A stretch of DNA of 17,704 bases from assembly GCA_002705125.1 (NCBI GenBank), contig PAHQ01000016.1, positions 1-17,704 on the forward strand, written 5' to 3'. Below the pieces are notes generated by a model. It ran no database searches, had not been told where the DNA came from, and saw nothing but the letters and a program-made list of their open reading frames with translations. Shown here one piece after another: positions 3,244-10,131 of the stretch. The position numbers were made by a program, and so were the translations under genes. Within the stretch, counting starts at the first letter, position 1. Each line of letters starts with the position of its first letter. The DNA is from Verrucomicrobiales bacterium. GTDB lineage: Bacteria; Verrucomicrobiota; Verrucomicrobiia; Verrucomicrobiales; DEV007.

Positions 3244-4626
3244 CTAAGACATTAATTCATGGACAACTCGACCATAAACGTCAGTAAGACGGAAATCACG
3301 ACCCGCATAACGGTATGTGAGATTTTCATGATCTAATCCGAGAAGATGAAGAATCGTGGCATGTAAATCATGTACATGAACAGGATTTTCAATGACGTTC
3401 ATTCCAAAATCGTCAGATTTTCCATAAGCAAAGCCTCCCTTGAGACCTGCTCCTGCAAGCATCATTGAAAATGCTGTATGATGATGATCTCTGCCGGGTT
3501 TCTTCTTATCATGTTTTTGAGCATAGGGGGTTCTTCCAAACTCTCCCCCAAATACCACTAAGGTATCATCAAGAAGGCCTCTAACTTTTAAATCACTAAT
3601 TAAAGCTGCCGCAGCCTTATCAGCGTCTGCACAAAGTTTGGCATGAGATGCATAATGGTTTTCATGGGTATCCCAAGGTTGATTACTAGAGTCTTTAGTA
3701 TAATAAACCGTGGTAAATCTTACCCCTCTTTCAGCTAAACGACGGGCAAGTAAACAGGATTGAGCAAATGTGGATTTTCCATAGTTCTCCTTTGTTTTTT
3801 TCGTCTCTTTCGAAATATCAAAAGCATCAGTAGCTTCGATCTGCATCCTGTATGCAGTTTCCATAGTTTTTATGTGAGATTCAAGTTCAGCATCGCCTCC
3901 CCTGTTCAACTTGTGAGAATGGTTGATTTTTGAGAGTAAATCAAGTTGGTGCCTTTGTTCACTCTTGGCAGATCCAGGACTTCTAATGTTGGCTAACAAT
4001 TTCTCCAAAGACATATCTTTAGTGACTACACTAGAAGCCTGGAAATGGGCAGGTAGAAAACCTGAACTCCATAAGGCAGGCCCTACCACTGTTTTAGGAC
4101 TTGGTCTGAGAACAACATAACCTGGTAAATTTTCATTTTCGGACCCTAAGCCATAAAGAGTCCACGCACCAATTGATGGCCTAGTCGGCTGAAGAACTCC
4201 TGTATGCATCTGCAATAAAGCAGGTTCATGATTTGGAACATCACAATGCATCGATCTAATAACACATAAATCATCAGCGATTTTGGATAAATTCGGTAAT
4301 GACTCACTAATTTGAAGACCAGAACCACCACAATTATTAAACTTTAAAGGTGAAGGCAAAAATCCTGCTTTTGTCGATTTATATAATTTCCCCTCGGGCT
4401 TTTTCCCTTCATGTTCTAAAAGACTTGGCTTTGGATCAAAAGTATCAACATGTGAAGGCGCGCCGTTAAGGAATAAAAAAATAACTCTCTTTGCTCGAGG
4501 AGCAAAGCTTCTCTTCAATGAACTAACAGAATTGGCTTCAACTATATTCCTAGAACCAATCATATTATTTAACCCAAGGGCACCAAAACCTAAAGCAGTT
4601 CGAGTGAGTATAGAACGACGATTCAT
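3244..4626 (-). CDS. DUF1501 exported protein (Tat signal, alkaline-phosphatase-like fold)
   Basis: A DUF1501-family protein, distantly related to sulfatases and alkaline phosphatases; members are abundant in Planctomycetes and Verrucomicrobiota and usually lie next to PSD1 genes. No reaction is established for the family. From the ATG at 4626 the protein opens MNRRSILTRTALG, a twin-arginine export signal. Numbering from the upstream GTG at 4644 (6 residues earlier), family motifs are FLNGAPSHVDTFDPKP at 58-73, MHCDVPNHEPALLQMHTG at 132-149, WDTHENH at 324-330, VVFGGEFGRTP at 363-373, GRDHHHTAF at 384-392 and the VHDLHATILHLLGLDH block near 424-439. The many His and Asp residues would suit metal binding. 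I prefer ATG 4626, because it puts the arginine pair at residues 3-4 and leaves a 10-base gap after PSD1; GTG 4644 would overlap PSD1 by 8 bases. lysS follows closely. Confidence 0.93.
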   Translation of the reverse strand: MNRRSILTRTALGFGALGLNNMIGSRNIVEANSVSSLKRSFAPRAKRVIFLFLNGAPSHVDTFDPKPSLLEHEGKKPEGKLYKSTKAGFLPSPLKFNNCGGSGLQISESLPNLSKIADDLCVIRSMHCDVPNHEPALLQMHTGVLQPTRPSIGAWTLYGLGSENENLPGYVVLRPSPKTVVGPALWSSGFLPAHFQASSVVTKDMSLEKLLANIRSPGSAKSEQRHQLDLLSKINHSHKLNRGGDAELESHIKTMETAYRMQIEATDAFDISKETKKTKENYGKSTFAQSCLLARRLAERGVRFTTVYYTKDSSNQPWDTHENHYASHAKLCADADKAAAALISDLKVRGLLDDTLVVFGGEFGRTPYAQKHDKKKPGRDHHHTAFSMMLAGAGLKGGFAYGKSDDFGMNVIENPVHVHDLHATILHLLGLDHENLTYRYAGRDFRLTDVYGRVVHELMS

Positions 4627-4636
4627 AGAATTATTA

Positions 4637-6400
4637 TTAATCACGGAAAATGAATTCGTTAGAGATTAGAAGATTCTGAGCAAACCGAGTTAACCGCTCT
4701 ATTGTTTTTTCTTCATCTACTGTTATATATTTAATAGTATCGGATTTCTCCTGTTCTGATGGGAGTCTAGATAAAATTTTTAAATAAATATTTTGCACTG
4801 ACAATGCAAGATTATCATTTACTAAATTTGAAACAATGTTTCTCGCTCGAGACAAAACGAATGGACTATTTATGAAATAAAGTTTTTGAGCTGGCGTAAT
4901 GGTCTCCTCACGGGTTGAGGCATGAATATTCGGATCCGGATAATCAAAAAGAGCTAAATAATGATTCAATTCTTTTCTGCTAATTCTTCCGTATATTGTA
5001 CGCCTAAAATTCTTAACATCAGAAATTTTTAGTGATTCGCTTCCACTATCTCCTTTTTCCATTTCCCCAGAAACAAATAACATCGAATCTCTAAGCATCT
5101 CAGCCGAAAGTCGTCTTCTAGGAAAGTATGAATAGAATTTATTCTCTTCATCCATTTTCCGTTTATTCAAAGAAACGATAGAGCTTTGCTTATAAGTTGA
5201 AGATAACAGAATCCTCTTGATTAAATTCTTTGTGGACCAACCTCCCTCGATGAACGTAATAGCCAAATAGTCTAATAATTCAGGATGAGTAGGAGGAGTT
5301 CCAAGACTGCCAAAATTACTTGCTGTAAGAACTAATCCTCGTCCAAATAACATCTGCCAAATTCTATTAGCTGCGACTCTAGCCGTTAACGGGTTTTTAG
5401 GATCTACAATAGCTTCAGCAAGCTCTAATCTTCCGCTTCCTTTAGTAAAAGTTTTTTTTTCTTGAGCTGATAAAATTCTTAAAAAAGATCTAGGAACGAT
5501 ATCTCCTTTATCTCTAACATCTCCTCTTTTAAATAAAGGCAAATCTTGAACTTTTCCATCTTTAACGACATGAATAAATGATTTCGCGCCATCTTCATAA
5601 ATTACTTCACGCTTATGAATTTCAGTGCTCGCAAAAACTCCTGCAAAGGCATGATAGTCTGCCGCACTAATTGGGTCATACTTATGGTCATGGCAACGTG
5701 CACAAGCAACTGTTAAAGCCATAAACCCTCGACTCACTACATCCACGCTATCCTCCCATTCTTCAGCTTTCACTTCAAGTCTACCACGGTCATAATATTG
5801 AGGGCCAAGACCAAGAAATCCCAATGCAACGATATCTTTATCACTTACATTATTGATCTGATCTGCCGCTAATTGTAAACGAATGAAATCATTATATGGC
5901 AAATCGTTATTAAAGGATTTTATAACCCAATTCCTGTACTTATGGGCGTGTGGATAAAAGAATTTTTCGTTATTACCAACCTGATGGGCTTGATCTTCCG
6001 CATAGCGCGCAACATTCATCCAAAGGCTCGCTATTTTTTCTCCAAATTCAGGTCTTTCAAGAAGATAGTCGATTAATTTCTTATACTCACTTCTATGATT
6101 GATATTCCTGAATTTTTTAACTTCATCAAACGTTGGAGGAAGTCCAATCAAATCATAAAAAAGCCTTTTAACTAAAATTTCAGGAGCAGCTTCTTCTACA
6201 GGTGACAAACCATTTTTTTCAATCTTTGAAAGTATATATTGATCAATATCACCTTTAGCCCATTTAGTATTCTTAATTTTAGGAAGTGACCCTTTATGTG
6301 GAGTAATAAAGGACCAAAAGTCTGAATGATCTTTAGTTACACCAACGGTGTTATTGCTTCCATAGGAAAAAAATAACAAAAGCAAAACAATTGTTCTCAT
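4637..6400 (-). CDS. PSD1-type protein (DUF1549 + DUF1553) with a CxxCH motif, short form
   Basis: An exported protein of the DUF1549/DUF1553 (PSD1) family typical of Planctomycetes and Verrucomicrobiota; biochemical function is unknown. A short signal peptide (MRTIVLLLLFFSYG) opens the 587-residue protein. DUF1549 covers about 45-250: WAKGDIDQYIL at 47-57, RLFYDLIGLPPTFDE at 79-93, and CARCHDHKYDPI at 233-244, whose CxxCH could bind c-type haem. DUF1553 covers about 300-580, with NPLTARVAANRIWQMLFGRG, SNFGSLGTPPTHPELLD, and the RRRLSAEMLRDSML block. Many PSD1 proteins are longer and carry an extra N-terminal cytochrome (PSCyt1) domain; this one goes straight from the signal peptide to DUF1549. 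It pairs with the DUF1501 gene immediately downstream (stop TAA at 4639-4637). The ATG at 6400 has AGGGA right against it and no properly spaced Shine-Dalgarno sequence. Confidence 0.93.
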   Translation of the reverse strand: MRTIVLLLLFFSYGSNNTVGVTKDHSDFWSFITPHKGSLPKIKNTKWAKGDIDQYILSKIEKNGLSPVEEAAPEILVKRLFYDLIGLPPTFDEVKKFRNINHRSEYKKLIDYLLERPEFGEKIASLWMNVARYAEDQAHQVGNNEKFFYPHAHKYRNWVIKSFNNDLPYNDFIRLQLAADQINNVSDKDIVALGFLGLGPQYYDRGRLEVKAEEWEDSVDVVSRGFMALTVACARCHDHKYDPISAADYHAFAGVFASTEIHKREVIYEDGAKSFIHVVKDGKVQDLPLFKRGDVRDKGDIVPRSFLRILSAQEKKTFTKGSGRLELAEAIVDPKNPLTARVAANRIWQMLFGRGLVLTASNFGSLGTPPTHPELLDYLAITFIEGGWSTKNLIKRILLSSTYKQSSIVSLNKRKMDEENKFYSYFPRRRLSAEMLRDSMLFVSGEMEKGDSGSESLKISDVKNFRRTIYGRISRKELNHYLALFDYPDPNIHASTREETITPAQKLYFINSPFVLSRARNIVSNLVNDNLALSVQNIYLKILSRLPSEQEKSDTIKYITVDEEKTIERLTRFAQNLLISNEFIFRD

Positions 6401-6467: not shown

Positions 6468-9400
6468 TTATTTAATGAAAGGTTTCTTTAAGCGATAAAG
6501 CTCAAGTCTAGATTGTGCGGGAATCCGCTCTGGATGATCACCATAAATCTCGATAGCTTTTGATACAGTTATGGCGGCCTTTTCAAAAGCTCCACAACTT
6601 GCCTCAGCCATTGATAGTATATCAATATACCTGGGGTTTTTGTAATTTGTCATCTTGCATAGCCTGTCAGCTAGGACTCTTGCTTCTTGCGGTCTCCTGA
6701 TAGTCGAATCATTATCAGTAGCTAGAATAATCGCAAGATTCTCAGCAGCCTGAAGAGTTTTAGGAAACTTACTAAGAGTTTTCTTGTATTCCTGAACAGC
6801 TCGAACCTTATCCCCAGAATCGCGAAAGGAATTAGCATTTGCCAACATTTTCATTCCGCTATTAACCGGTATACCAAGCCCCTCTTTCAGAACACCTATC
6901 ATTCTAATAACTTCGTGGTCTTCCGGGTACCTTTGATTGAATTTCTCCAGATACATTAAAGCTTCTTTAGGCTGATCAGAATCAAGCAATTGAGAACTCA
7001 CCCTAGTAGGATCTGGTTTAGGTATTGGACTAATGAAACGCCCTTTAAAGGGAACTGACATTAACCTCCACTGCTCTGGATCAACATTAAGATTCTCAAA
7101 ATCTTTTAACACCTGATCAATAGAAACTTTTCCTTTATAAATAACTCCAACATCTCCATTGTGATCAACTAAAAAACTTGAAGGCACCGGCAAATCAATC
7201 CAGCGATCTAATACTCCTTTTTGAAACAAGTCTAAGGCTTGTATACCTTTATTAGAAATTAAAGAGTTTCTGAAAGGGTATGGTGATTTAATCATTGAAT
7301 CACCATCAACATTAAGTAATTCAACGTTTAGACCAGATTGAGTGATTTTCTGAACATTTTTTGACCAGTCATTCAGCTCTTCAACGCAAGGCTTACAGGA
7401 TGCAGACCATAAATTAATCAAAGTCGGTTTCTTTATTTCTGGCAATTCATCAAGTGATGGTAGTGGAAGTCTGGCAGGAAGAAGAATCCTAGCCTCATCA
7501 TGGTCAGGGAAAACATCTTGAACTGACGCCTTCATGGATTCATGACGCTGCAATTCAAGTAATTCAGCATTAGTTGAACCATATTTAATGGTATAGGCTT
7601 TAGATTTATTAATTCCTTTAACATCGACTGATGTTCCGTCAGGCCAGATAACGGAAACTTTATTTACCTTTTCAACATTACCTAATCCGAGATGGACTAA
7701 AGTTCCCGACTGCGAGAGAAAACCATCTCCTGCGTAAACAGTACGCATAATGGGTTTTGTAGATTTATCAGTAAATACATGAACCTCTGCCCCAATAGCA
7801 TCCTTGTTTACTTTGATTCCATCGCCCTCAAGCTCTATTGCAAGCCAATGAGATTTACTTTGTGAGCGATTCTCCAATAACCTTAATCTTGGAGCATTGC
7901 GACAACTCAACCAAATATCCAGATCTCCGTCAAAATCCCAATCAGTTGCAACGATAGCTCTAGCATCATCAGGAAAATCAAATCCAGTAATTGCAGAATT
8001 ATCAGCAAACCCTTTTCCTTCACAATTTATGAATGCACAATTTCTTTCGCGACCACTGAAGGACTTATCCTTATGCAAAAGACGATTGAGGGCTCTCCAT
8101 CCTTGTTTGTATTTTAACGTTTCGCCCTCAGTAGCATCAATGCTTAGCGGGGATTTCGACACGACCTGCCGCCAATAAACACTTCACAAATCCCCAGAAT
8201 CAGGAGCAGTTATAAAGCCATTAGCAACTAATATATCAAGCCAGCCATCATTATCTATGTCAGCAAATCGCGAGCCCCAAGCCCAACGCCCCATAGTAAC
8301 ATTAGCGACCTCACTAACATCCTTGAAAGGTTGACCAGAAACTGCCTGAAAAAGCGAATTGCCTCGAGCATGCCTACGAAAATCATTCAGTAAATTTAAA
8401 TTAACACCCAACTTAAATTGTCTTTGATAGGTAATTCTATTTCCTGCGGAAGAAAACATATTACTTACATACAGATCAGGAAGTCCATCCCTATTGTAAT
8501 CCCCCCAACTAACCGACATTCCTGCGGACATGTCTTCTACTCCAAATTCTTTAGCTACGTCTACAAACTTACCTCCATTATTTTGATAAAGATTATTTCT
8601 ACCGTAATCGTTAGCAACATACAAATCAAGATCACCATCTCTATCGTAATCGTGCCAACTGGATGCAAAACTAAATCGATCATTGTTTTGATTTAGCCCA
8701 GACTCCTCAGTTACTTCGGTGAAATTCCAATTCCCATCATTTCTAAGCATTTTGTTTTTACCTCCATTTCTTGCGTCGTGATAAGGCATAGGTTCACCCA
8801 TAACACCGGACTCACTCTCAGAACCAGCCGGAGGATTGTACCCACAAAGAAAAACATCTAAATCTCCGTCATTATCATAATCGGCGGCACTAATAGAAAA
8901 AGTTTGAGCGTGTGTTCCTAACCCCAAAGCAATCTCAAACTTTGCATTGCCCAAATTGTCCATGAATAAAATCTTAAAATTCTGTGATATTGCAATATCT
9001 CGATCCCCATCATTATCAAAATCAAGAATTAAAGCACTAGCACAATAATCAAGCCATCCTGTATTACTTGATTCTGTAACATCTTTAAGAGTCCCATCAG
9101 CCCGTCTAATAAAGAGACGATTAGGTAACCCTCCTTGTTGACAGACATACATGTCATCAAGCTTATCTCCATTTACATCTCCAAAAGCGATACCATGATT
9201 AGCCACAACATCTAAACCAAAGTCACGAGCAATTCGTGACCTCCAATGATCGGTAGATCTTAAGAATTGCTCTCTGTAGGCCTCACCGTTTCCGAATACC
9301 GAACTCGTGATATCCACAAATAACTTATGATTTTTTGCGCCATTCCGAGAAACCTCTTCATATGATAGCACAATAATACCATTCAATTTTAGAGATTCAT

Positions 9401-10073
9401 CTGAGAGGATCCATGAAGTTTCCCATTCAGAATTAATTTGAAATAGATTACCTCCAGATAACCCTGAAATATTTACCAAGACTCGGCCCTTGAAAATGTC
9501 TTTCTTGCTATCAATACCTAAATCCTCTTGATTAATTCGGTAAAGTTTGAAGGCAATTTTCTCAGGAGGTGCATCAAACAGGGACAACAAATCATTTATT
9601 GAATCTTTCAATTTAACATTAGATTCTTTTTTGGCATGACCTCTTTTAACAATGAATTCATCATTCTTGTAAATTTCTTCTAGTACCTTAGGTCTCAAAA
9701 AGTTTCCTTTGTATTCATCACCTTGAATTTGCTGCAAATCTTTTTTATTAATAAGATTTTTAAGCTTCATTATATTCGATAAATTTTTTAACTTCTTTGT
9801 GGTGATTTCATTAAGAAATTCAGAATTCCAACCGTCCTCTTTAGGGTCAATCCTTCGCCATGCGTCTTCGAGAGGGGCAATCACCTTACTATCTTTGAGA
9901 CCCGGAGCCACGACCATACCAGAAACCAAATCAGTGTCTACTATATCGATTAATTCAGAGCCCACTTTTTTCTCTGAACATCCGGTAGAAAAACAACACA
10001 AAGTAATTACGAATAGTCCGAAAAAGAAAAGCCAAGAAACTTTAAAGCTTAATCTCAATTCAAAACCATACAT
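6468..10073 (-). CDS. Candidate selenoprotein: FG-GAP propeller + ASPIC/UnbV + TlpA-like thioredoxin + TPR, read through an in-frame TGA
   Basis: Seen: two open frames in the same phase, 10073-8184 and 8183-6468, separated only by one TGA (8186-8184). Read through, they give about 1,201 residues. Numbering from the GTG at 10076 (subtract 1 for the ATG at 10073): membrane/lipoprotein signal 8-33 (STGC at 30-33); unrecognised N-terminal region 34-290; seven DxDxDG-type FG-GAP/VCBS repeats at 300-308, 352-360, 399-407, 476-484, 526-534, 606-614 and, after the TGA, 712-720; ASPIC/UnbV about 738-833 (DAIGAEV, GFLSQSG, HLGLG, WPDG); thioredoxin/TlpA-like domain about 868-1008 with CKPC at 894-897; TPR-like tail about 1028-1198. 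The TGA is residue 631, in GDL-U-SVYWRQVV. Six repeats before and one after would complete a seven-bladed propeller, so the halves form one protein. A conventional pipeline would split it at 8184. Known: these domains occur together in PVC proteins. Inferred: residue 631 is selenocysteine. Alternatives are a recent nonsense mutation or a TGC/TGT sequencing error. Confidence 0.8.
8155..8175 (-). promoter_or_regulatory. Candidate bacterial SECIS hairpin just after the TGA
   Basis: Counting nucleotides after the TGA on the minus strand, C13-G27, G14-C26, G15-U25, C16-G24 and A17-U23 pair around the loop GGUCG (nt 18-22; bases 8166-8162). U10-A28 and U9-A29 can extend the stem below a two-base GG bulge. 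Known rules for bacterial SECIS elements, from memory: apical loop 16-37 nt after UGA, short loop, G in its first two positions; all are met. The stretch GCAGGUC is shared with the apical hairpin of E. coli fdhF, where by my recollection the loop starts at nt 19. The 17 bases at 8173-8157 are 13/17 G+C in a very AT-rich gene, as expected if RNA structure is selected. Folding was done by eye. Confidence 0.68.
8184..8186 (-). other. In-frame TGA, proposed selenocysteine codon
   Basis: The TGA falls between GDL and SVYWRQVVSKSPLSID in an otherwise uninterrupted frame. The next possible restart, a GTG at 8162, comes after seven sense codons, which still look like family sequence rather than drifted sequence. 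A general switch of TGA to a sense codon is unlikely: TGA ends yqeY (11204-11206) and the leftmost gene (317-319), and tryptophan is written TGG throughout, including four codons after this TGA. A hairpin meeting bacterial SECIS rules follows immediately. No selA, selB, selC or selD is in the window, so the decoding machinery must be looked for elsewhere in the genome. Confidence 0.75.
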
Positions 10074-10131
10074 CACTGCAAGGAGAACAAAACTCCTAAG
10101 GTACTAATTGTAAAGAATTTGCTTAACTAAG

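Follow-up and report, generated by a model that had tools for sequence, protein, structure and literature searches.

Reading frame and domain plan

The Verrucomicrobiales DNA analysed here (the window, 17,704 nucleotides of contig PAHQ01000016.1) raises the question of whether a TGA inside a long coding region ends a protein or encodes selenocysteine (Sec). Two open frames on the minus strand of the window, 8184-10076 (-) and 6468-8183 (-), share a common phase and are separated by a single TGA (8186-8184). The first-pass annotation had described this arrangement, and the read-through translation of both frames confirms it, giving 1202 residues from the GTG at 10076 with one internal TGA. Residues are numbered from this GTG, which makes the TGA residue 631; it is residue 630 if the start is the ATG at 10073. 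The features of the gene are collected in Table 1.

Both sides of the TGA fit one domain plan, as had also been proposed from the sequence. FG-GAP repeats (PF13517, 130 bits; PF01839 is also matched) precede the TGA, and UnbV_ASPIC (PF07593, 57 bits), a ResA-like thioredoxin domain with a CKPC motif, and a TPR match (TPR_14, PF13428, 32 bits) follow it. The FG-GAP repeats and PF07593 both score over the Pfam cut-off, the combination that marks CRTAC1 / ASPIC-UnbV proteins. The AhpC-TSA match after the TGA is weak (23.6 bits against a Pfam cut-off of 26), and the sequence scores for this domain lie below the curated Pfam and NCBIfam cut-offs; a thioredoxin-like domain with a CxxC is assigned nonetheless because residues 877-996 match ResA structures (E 5e-5), the fold is of this type and the CKPC motif is present. 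No selenoprotein model is among the NCBIfam matches to the window protein. The predicted structure of the product has a pLDDT of 92.6 and a CRTAC1-like propeller fold. The N-terminus carries what we take to be a lipobox (Cys33), and in the set of TGA-bearing sequences (81 rows, including the TGC-bearing locus L055) 54 of the 72 rows with a residue at that column have Cys.

Table 1. Coordinates of the read-through gene, its parts and its relatives in the same genome (G000)
Feature	Position	Strand	Basis or remark
Read-through gene, probable Sec at residue 631	6468..10076	(-)	Start GTG 10076 or ATG 10073; 1202 residues from GTG
Putative export signal, lipoprotein type, Cys at residue 33	9978..10076	(-)	Read from translation; presumed lipobox
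FG-GAP beta-propeller as far as the Sec codon	8187..9194, left edge approximate	(-)	PF13517, PF01839; CRTAC1-like fold
In-frame TGA, read as selenocysteine	8184..8186	(-)	TGA in 79/80 related loci (best 80 of 518)
SECIS-like hairpin, loop GGUCG, 6-bp stem (outermost pair mismatched in window)	8156..8172	(-)	Stem starts 11 nt, loop 17 nt after TGA
Cys680, proposed Sec partner	8037..8039	(-)	Cys in 65/80 Sec-type rows vs 7/63 relatives without Sec/Cys at 631
UnbV_ASPIC domain	7593..7799	(-)	Pfam; residues 129-197 of post-TGA piece
ResA/TlpA-like thioredoxin domain	7149..7433	(-)	Pfam, NCBIfam, fold and structure matches
CKPC motif (Cys894, Cys897) of ResA-like domain	7386..7397	(-)	Both Cys in 75/75 Sec-type rows reaching the motif
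TPR-like stretch	6897..6992	(-)	PF13428
Five further TGA-bearing paralogues	G000 contigs C49, C101, C30, C40, C46		SECIS-like hairpin in each

Conservation of the TGA

A protein search with the read-through product gave a list of the best 120 database proteins, 29 of which are short (661-709 residues), and every one of these short proteins ends in DL at the very position where the window has its TGA; the DNA behind these 29 was not inspected individually. The short proteins and the window were aligned and scanned against genome records, and the best 80 of 518 loci were kept, which are not a random sample because they are the loci most like the query. By record title they comprise 51 Verrucomicrobiota, 23 Planctomycetota, 3 Acidobacteriota and 3 unassigned loci. 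The codon at the Sec site is TGA in 79 of these 80 loci and TGC in one, the Phycisphaerales record L055. The residues that follow are S[VF][YF]WRQVV or close variants, and the frame stays open beyond the TGA, with 72 of the 80 loci reaching a stop inside the locus and 8 running off its end. Among the 72 frames with an end in the locus, 26 terminate at a TGA, including that of L019 (Verrucomicrobiales), the nearest relative of the window gene in this set. That the TGA is a real stop, arising by mutation or sequencing error and leaving the halves as separate or dead proteins, would fit the database proteins that end there and a GTG at 8162 that could start the second piece, but error and decay are already contradicted by the conservation of the same TGA in these 79 loci with records from three phyla, as well as by six TGA copies in one genome, the coding maintained after the TGA and a covarying hairpin (see below), and this explanation is extremely improbable.

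Relatives with a sense codon at the site give a different picture. In 67 full-length relatives without TGA, chosen from the best 120 proteins by length (>850) and motif pattern, the residues at 631 are D17 N17 S14 C4 A4 H4 E3 G2 Q1 L1. The first-pass annotation had named Cys or a further in-frame TGA at this place in homologues as its check. The TGA half of this held, but Cys occurs in only 4 of the 67, and Asp, Asn and Ser are commoner than the Cys that had been expected as the usual alternative. The other 63 have neither Cys nor Sec, which is unusual for a redox site.

L055 (5310-5345) has TGC (Cys) in place of the TGA and keeps a complete hairpin, and its genome has SelA, SelB and tRNA-Sec; it looks as if Sec had recently been replaced by Cys in this gene. 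Three distant relatives from other genomes of the phylum (L101, L115 and L124) also have Cys at the aligned place, in the context DYC-x-x-[FY]WTDDIYRG, and may be a Cys branch of the same site.

A SECIS-like hairpin after the TGA

Compensatory changes preserve the hairpin that follows the TGA, beyond what free codon choice would give. For 81 sequences, namely the window and the best 80 of 518 loci, the 36 nt starting at the TGA were aligned without gaps. Columns 15-20 pair with columns 26-31 around a 5-nt loop, which reads GGUCG in 72 of the 81. Standard pairs fill 98.8% of the cells (67 distinct rows) compared with 94.1% in shuffles, and changes on both sides of a pair number 15 compared with 2.3; none of 500 shuffles reaches either value or the covariation score of the hairpin. 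Further pair types are matched by 10 of 500 shuffles, and pairs with a double change number two, which is not above chance (221 of 500). Structures slid along the alignment pair at 11 to 67%.

Amino acids change together with the pairing in these 81 rows. With Ala for Ser at +9 (8 rows), the Arg codon is CGC in six, CGT in one and CGG, which is unpaired, in one; with Pro at the same place (2 rows), it is CGG in both. With Arg for Gln at +6, the partner base is C for U in six of seven rows, and Val is replaced by Thr in four. Paralogues from the same genome that lie outside the alignment show A-U for C-G at column pair 16/30 (L121 and L128), and another, L113, retains a stem whose loop, after a shift, reads GGU. 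Synonymous recoding with the codon use of each locus predicts 3.62 pairs, compared with 5.94 seen; taken singly, 63 of the 81 loci fall below 0.05, the window at 0.026. The codons of well-kept residues upstream vary, except for that of the Leu directly preceding the TGA (TTG in 70 of 81), and those within the hairpin are nearly fixed (Val-Val, GTC 78/80 and GTG 74/74; Ser, TCG 69/71). A covariance model of the aligned rows, R1, finds six genes in the window's own genome at E <= 3.3e-4, with the next best match at 0.59. Five of the six are outside the training set, and coding constraint also helps the score.

The bacterial SECIS (bSECIS) model has a loop of 3-9 nt, a stem of 4-16 bp, a G in the first two loop places and 16-37 nt from UGA to loop, according to the available text of PMC13188914. 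The hairpin has this shape, with a 5-nt loop, a 6-bp stem (5 bp in the window) and a spacing of 17 nt. Compared with the bSECIS energy threshold of <= -7.5 kcal/mol, the hairpin alone averages -7.9 across 76 loci, with values from -10.0 to -6.0. The window's own copy is weak at -5.2 kcal/mol, having lost the outermost pair and containing one G-U, and a different fold of the 45 nt that follow the TGA is better, at -11.6. The fold energy of these 45 nt is unremarkable (z -1.17; 26 of 200 shuffles are as stable), and a search of Rfam over window 7900-8400 gave nothing over threshold and two far weaker matches. In E. coli fdhF, GGUC starts 18 nt after the UGA. R1 gave weak matches to fdhF with filters off, none above chance, so that only the loop letters and the spacing are shared.

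Paralogues and Sec machinery

The assembly that contains the window (2.98 Mb, 114 contigs, 83.7% complete) has 28 matches to the TGA region at E <= 1e-5. The best six (48-100% identity) each have exactly one TGA, at the same place and followed by the hairpin, and the remaining 22 have no TGA, several of them falling in the same genes. Six copies in one 3-Mb assembly suggest a marked demand for selenium. On contigs C25 and C26 there are additional, closely spaced frames of FG-GAP type that have no TGA.

The Sec genes of the same genome had been suggested as a second check, and selA, selD and tRNA-Sec were found, while selB was not. SelA scores 399 bits, SelD 333 bits and tRNA-Sec 61 bits, the last also called SeC by ARAGORN. 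The best SelB match in this 83.7%-complete assembly has 180 bits against a cut-off of 242, and is presumably EF-Tu, judging by its sequence. The genome of the nearest relative L019 (G387) has SelB at 338 bits together with SelA and tRNA-Sec, from which we infer that the missing SelB is a gap in the assembly. The selD gene (L016, G000:C59:27753-28673) itself contains an in-frame TGA, its context being TCG-U-AAK, with GGTC starting 17 nt after it, so that the window gene and selD have the same loop letters and TGA spacing (GGUC, 17 nt). This context fits the SelD Sec motif, listed as UxxK in Table 1 of PMC13188914 in its available text.

The search for SelA covered one locus each from 50 of the approximately 59 genomes behind the best 80 of 518 loci. 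SelA is present in 43 of the 50, comprising 42 of the 49 TGA-bearing genomes and the TGC genome; 41 of the 42 score above 300 bits and one is a partial match at 234. With G349, a genome of the window's phylum, the set grows to 51 genomes, of which 42 have SelB and 41 have tRNA-Sec over cut-off; tRNA-Sec scores near 47 bits are weak evidence, since control genomes, Caulobacter among them, also exceed the tRNA-Sec cut-off. In four of the 51 (G389, G391, G414 and G427), whose records are titled MAG, neither SelA nor SelB nor tRNA-Sec exceeds its cut-off. A background set of 387 genomes, sampled evenly across the window's phylum, contains 27 with SelA above 300 bits and 35 with SelA over the low curated cut-off. 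A survey of this set, with up to six candidates scored per genome, found the TGA form in the window's genome and in G349, which has three TGA-bearing genes. Both are among the 27 SelA genomes, leaving 25 of 385 others, and the SelA matches include none of the 12 phylum genomes in which every match to the gene had a sense codon. SelA is far commoner with the TGA form (42 of 49 TGA-bearing genomes vs 25 of 385 others of the phylum), a rough contrast since the two sets differ in phyla and completeness.

These data also bear on whether the UGA is decoded without selenium, by a reassigned code or by unspecific read-through. The SelB missing from the 83.7%-complete assembly and the 4 of 51 genomes with no Sec machinery over cut-off would be in keeping with such decoding, but 26 of the 72 related frames with an end in the locus, that of the nearest relative included, stop at a downstream TGA, Trp is found at 631 in none of the 67 sense relatives, the genome has tRNA-Sec, SelA and SelD, and the loop, stem and spacing of the hairpin match the bacterial SECIS model. 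Decoding without selenium is very improbable. The earlier reading of the TGA as a Sec codon is supported by the conservation of the TGA, the six copies in one genome, SelA, SelD and tRNA-Sec, the covarying SECIS-like hairpin and the enrichment of SelA, and from these sequence comparisons residue 631 is very probably Sec.

Possible role of Sec631

In the proposed mechanism, tRNA-Sec would decode the UGA, guided by a bacterial SECIS hairpin in the following codons W-R-Q-V-V-S, a step with strong support. The product is probably a cell-envelope lipoprotein, judging from its N-terminus. It is modelled as a CRTAC1-like propeller with ASPIC/UnbV, in which Sec631 would lie in the first turn of a helix that runs between strands of the propeller region. 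Co-conservation points to Sec631 as a catalytic selenol that may work with Cys680 and have as its reductant the CxxC of the protein's own ResA-like domain, and the protein would then act as an envelope thiol or peroxide oxidoreductase. An envelope oxidoreductase with the ResA-like domain as its own reductase (a relay) is put forward tentatively, as a serious candidate for the function.

The CxxC of the ResA-like domain is present in all 75 Sec-type rows that reach the motif (5 more end earlier), compared with 15 of the 60 relatives that have residues there, out of the 63 with neither Sec nor Cys at 631. Cys680 is likewise concentrated in the Sec-type rows (Table 1); Cys680 or Cys685 is found in 71 of 80, and 9 of 80 have neither. 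This co-conservation speaks for a Sec631-Cys680-CxxC chain, although it is confounded by kinship. In a FastTree tree built without the Sec/Cys columns, Sec and other residues must interchange 9 times, of which well-supported branches force only 1, and an independent-pair test of Sec with CxxC or Cys680 gave one supported pair and no significance. Many sense rows and the Cys form L055/P0001 sit among Sec-type branches in the best tree, which is unrooted; this is read as repeated loss of Sec, though the tree does not prove it.

It is also conceivable that Sec is real but serves as a metal ligand or structural residue and not as a redox catalyst. The sense residues at 631 (D, N, S, C, A, H, E, G, Q, L) include several possible metal ligands, and metal binding has been predicted for part of the selenoproteins in the available text of PMC13188914. 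Such a role is unlikely, if still worth weighing, since CxxC and Cys680 accompany Sec as they would in a redox chain, with the same confounding by kinship. The redox relay remains the preferred reading of the site.

The next genes downstream in the window, at 3244-6400 (-), encode a PSCyt2/PSD1 protein and a DUF1501 protein. Relatives of PSD1 and DUF1501 lie near 5 and 3, respectively, of the best 80 of 518 loci, only 24 of which extend at least 1500 bases downstream, and with these counts the gene neighbourhood was no help as a clue to function. Window 8700-9300, the one stretch compared with plasmid records, had no match among them.

Comparison with known systems

The first-pass annotation knew of no described Sec-containing ASPIC/UnbV protein, and none appears in the sources consulted here. 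A 2026 table of 119 selenoprotein families and subfamilies, as far as available, has no FG-GAP, ASPIC, VCBS or CRTAC1 entry (PMC13188914). The terms FG-GAP, ASPIC, CRTAC1 and VCBS are absent from the available texts of that paper, of the deep-Sep paper (PMC12013277) and of a 2022 review (PMC9312934). Searches of the full-text literature, exclusive of supplements (including S9 of PMC4807772), bioRxiv and closed journals, gave no earlier report of this selenoprotein, nor did the passages available from PMC4807772 and PMC9402790. Selenoproteins have already been reported from Planctomycetes, and the available passages name other enzymes (PMC4807772).

As a group, these selenium proteins seem to have escaped notice so far. 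They may form a widespread selenoprotein family, not described before, that belongs to Verrucomicrobiota, Planctomycetota and Acidobacteriota and has several copies in some genomes; its CRTAC1-like propeller would be a selenium enzyme with a built-in ResA-type reductase. In other lineages Asp, Asn or Ser would repeatedly have taken the place of Sec, the reductase Cys being lost as well, and a selenium enzyme would thus have turned into a non-redox protein. This broader proposal is advanced with reserve, because the claim of lost Sec rests on weakly supported branches. If it is true, database proteins of the family stop at the UGA (29 of the best 120) and about half of each protein is absent from the annotation. 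With a propeller Sec and a reductase combined in one polypeptide, the function of bacterial ASPIC/UnbV proteins would also become testable, and there would be a first chemical handle on them.

The closest structural likeness is to CRTAC1 (cartilage acidic protein 1; mouse structure 9ETN), which has a propeller fold akin to that of the window protein, whereas the ResA-like domain, the TPRs and, by the Sec reading, the Sec are known here from the window protein only. Residues 877-996 with their CKPC motif resemble the ResA/TlpA thiol-disulfide oxidoreductases, but in the window protein the domain is fused to a propeller and does not itself contain the Sec; for the TlpA-type selenoprotein in the catalogue, the Sec motif is given as UGC (Table 1 of PMC13188914, in its available text). 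E. coli fdhF, a known selenoprotein gene, likewise has a UGA followed by GGUC at 18 nt, in a different protein. The 119 prokaryotic selenoprotein families and subfamilies of PMC13188914, as described in its available text, likewise have a UGA with the SECIS directly after it and within the coding region.
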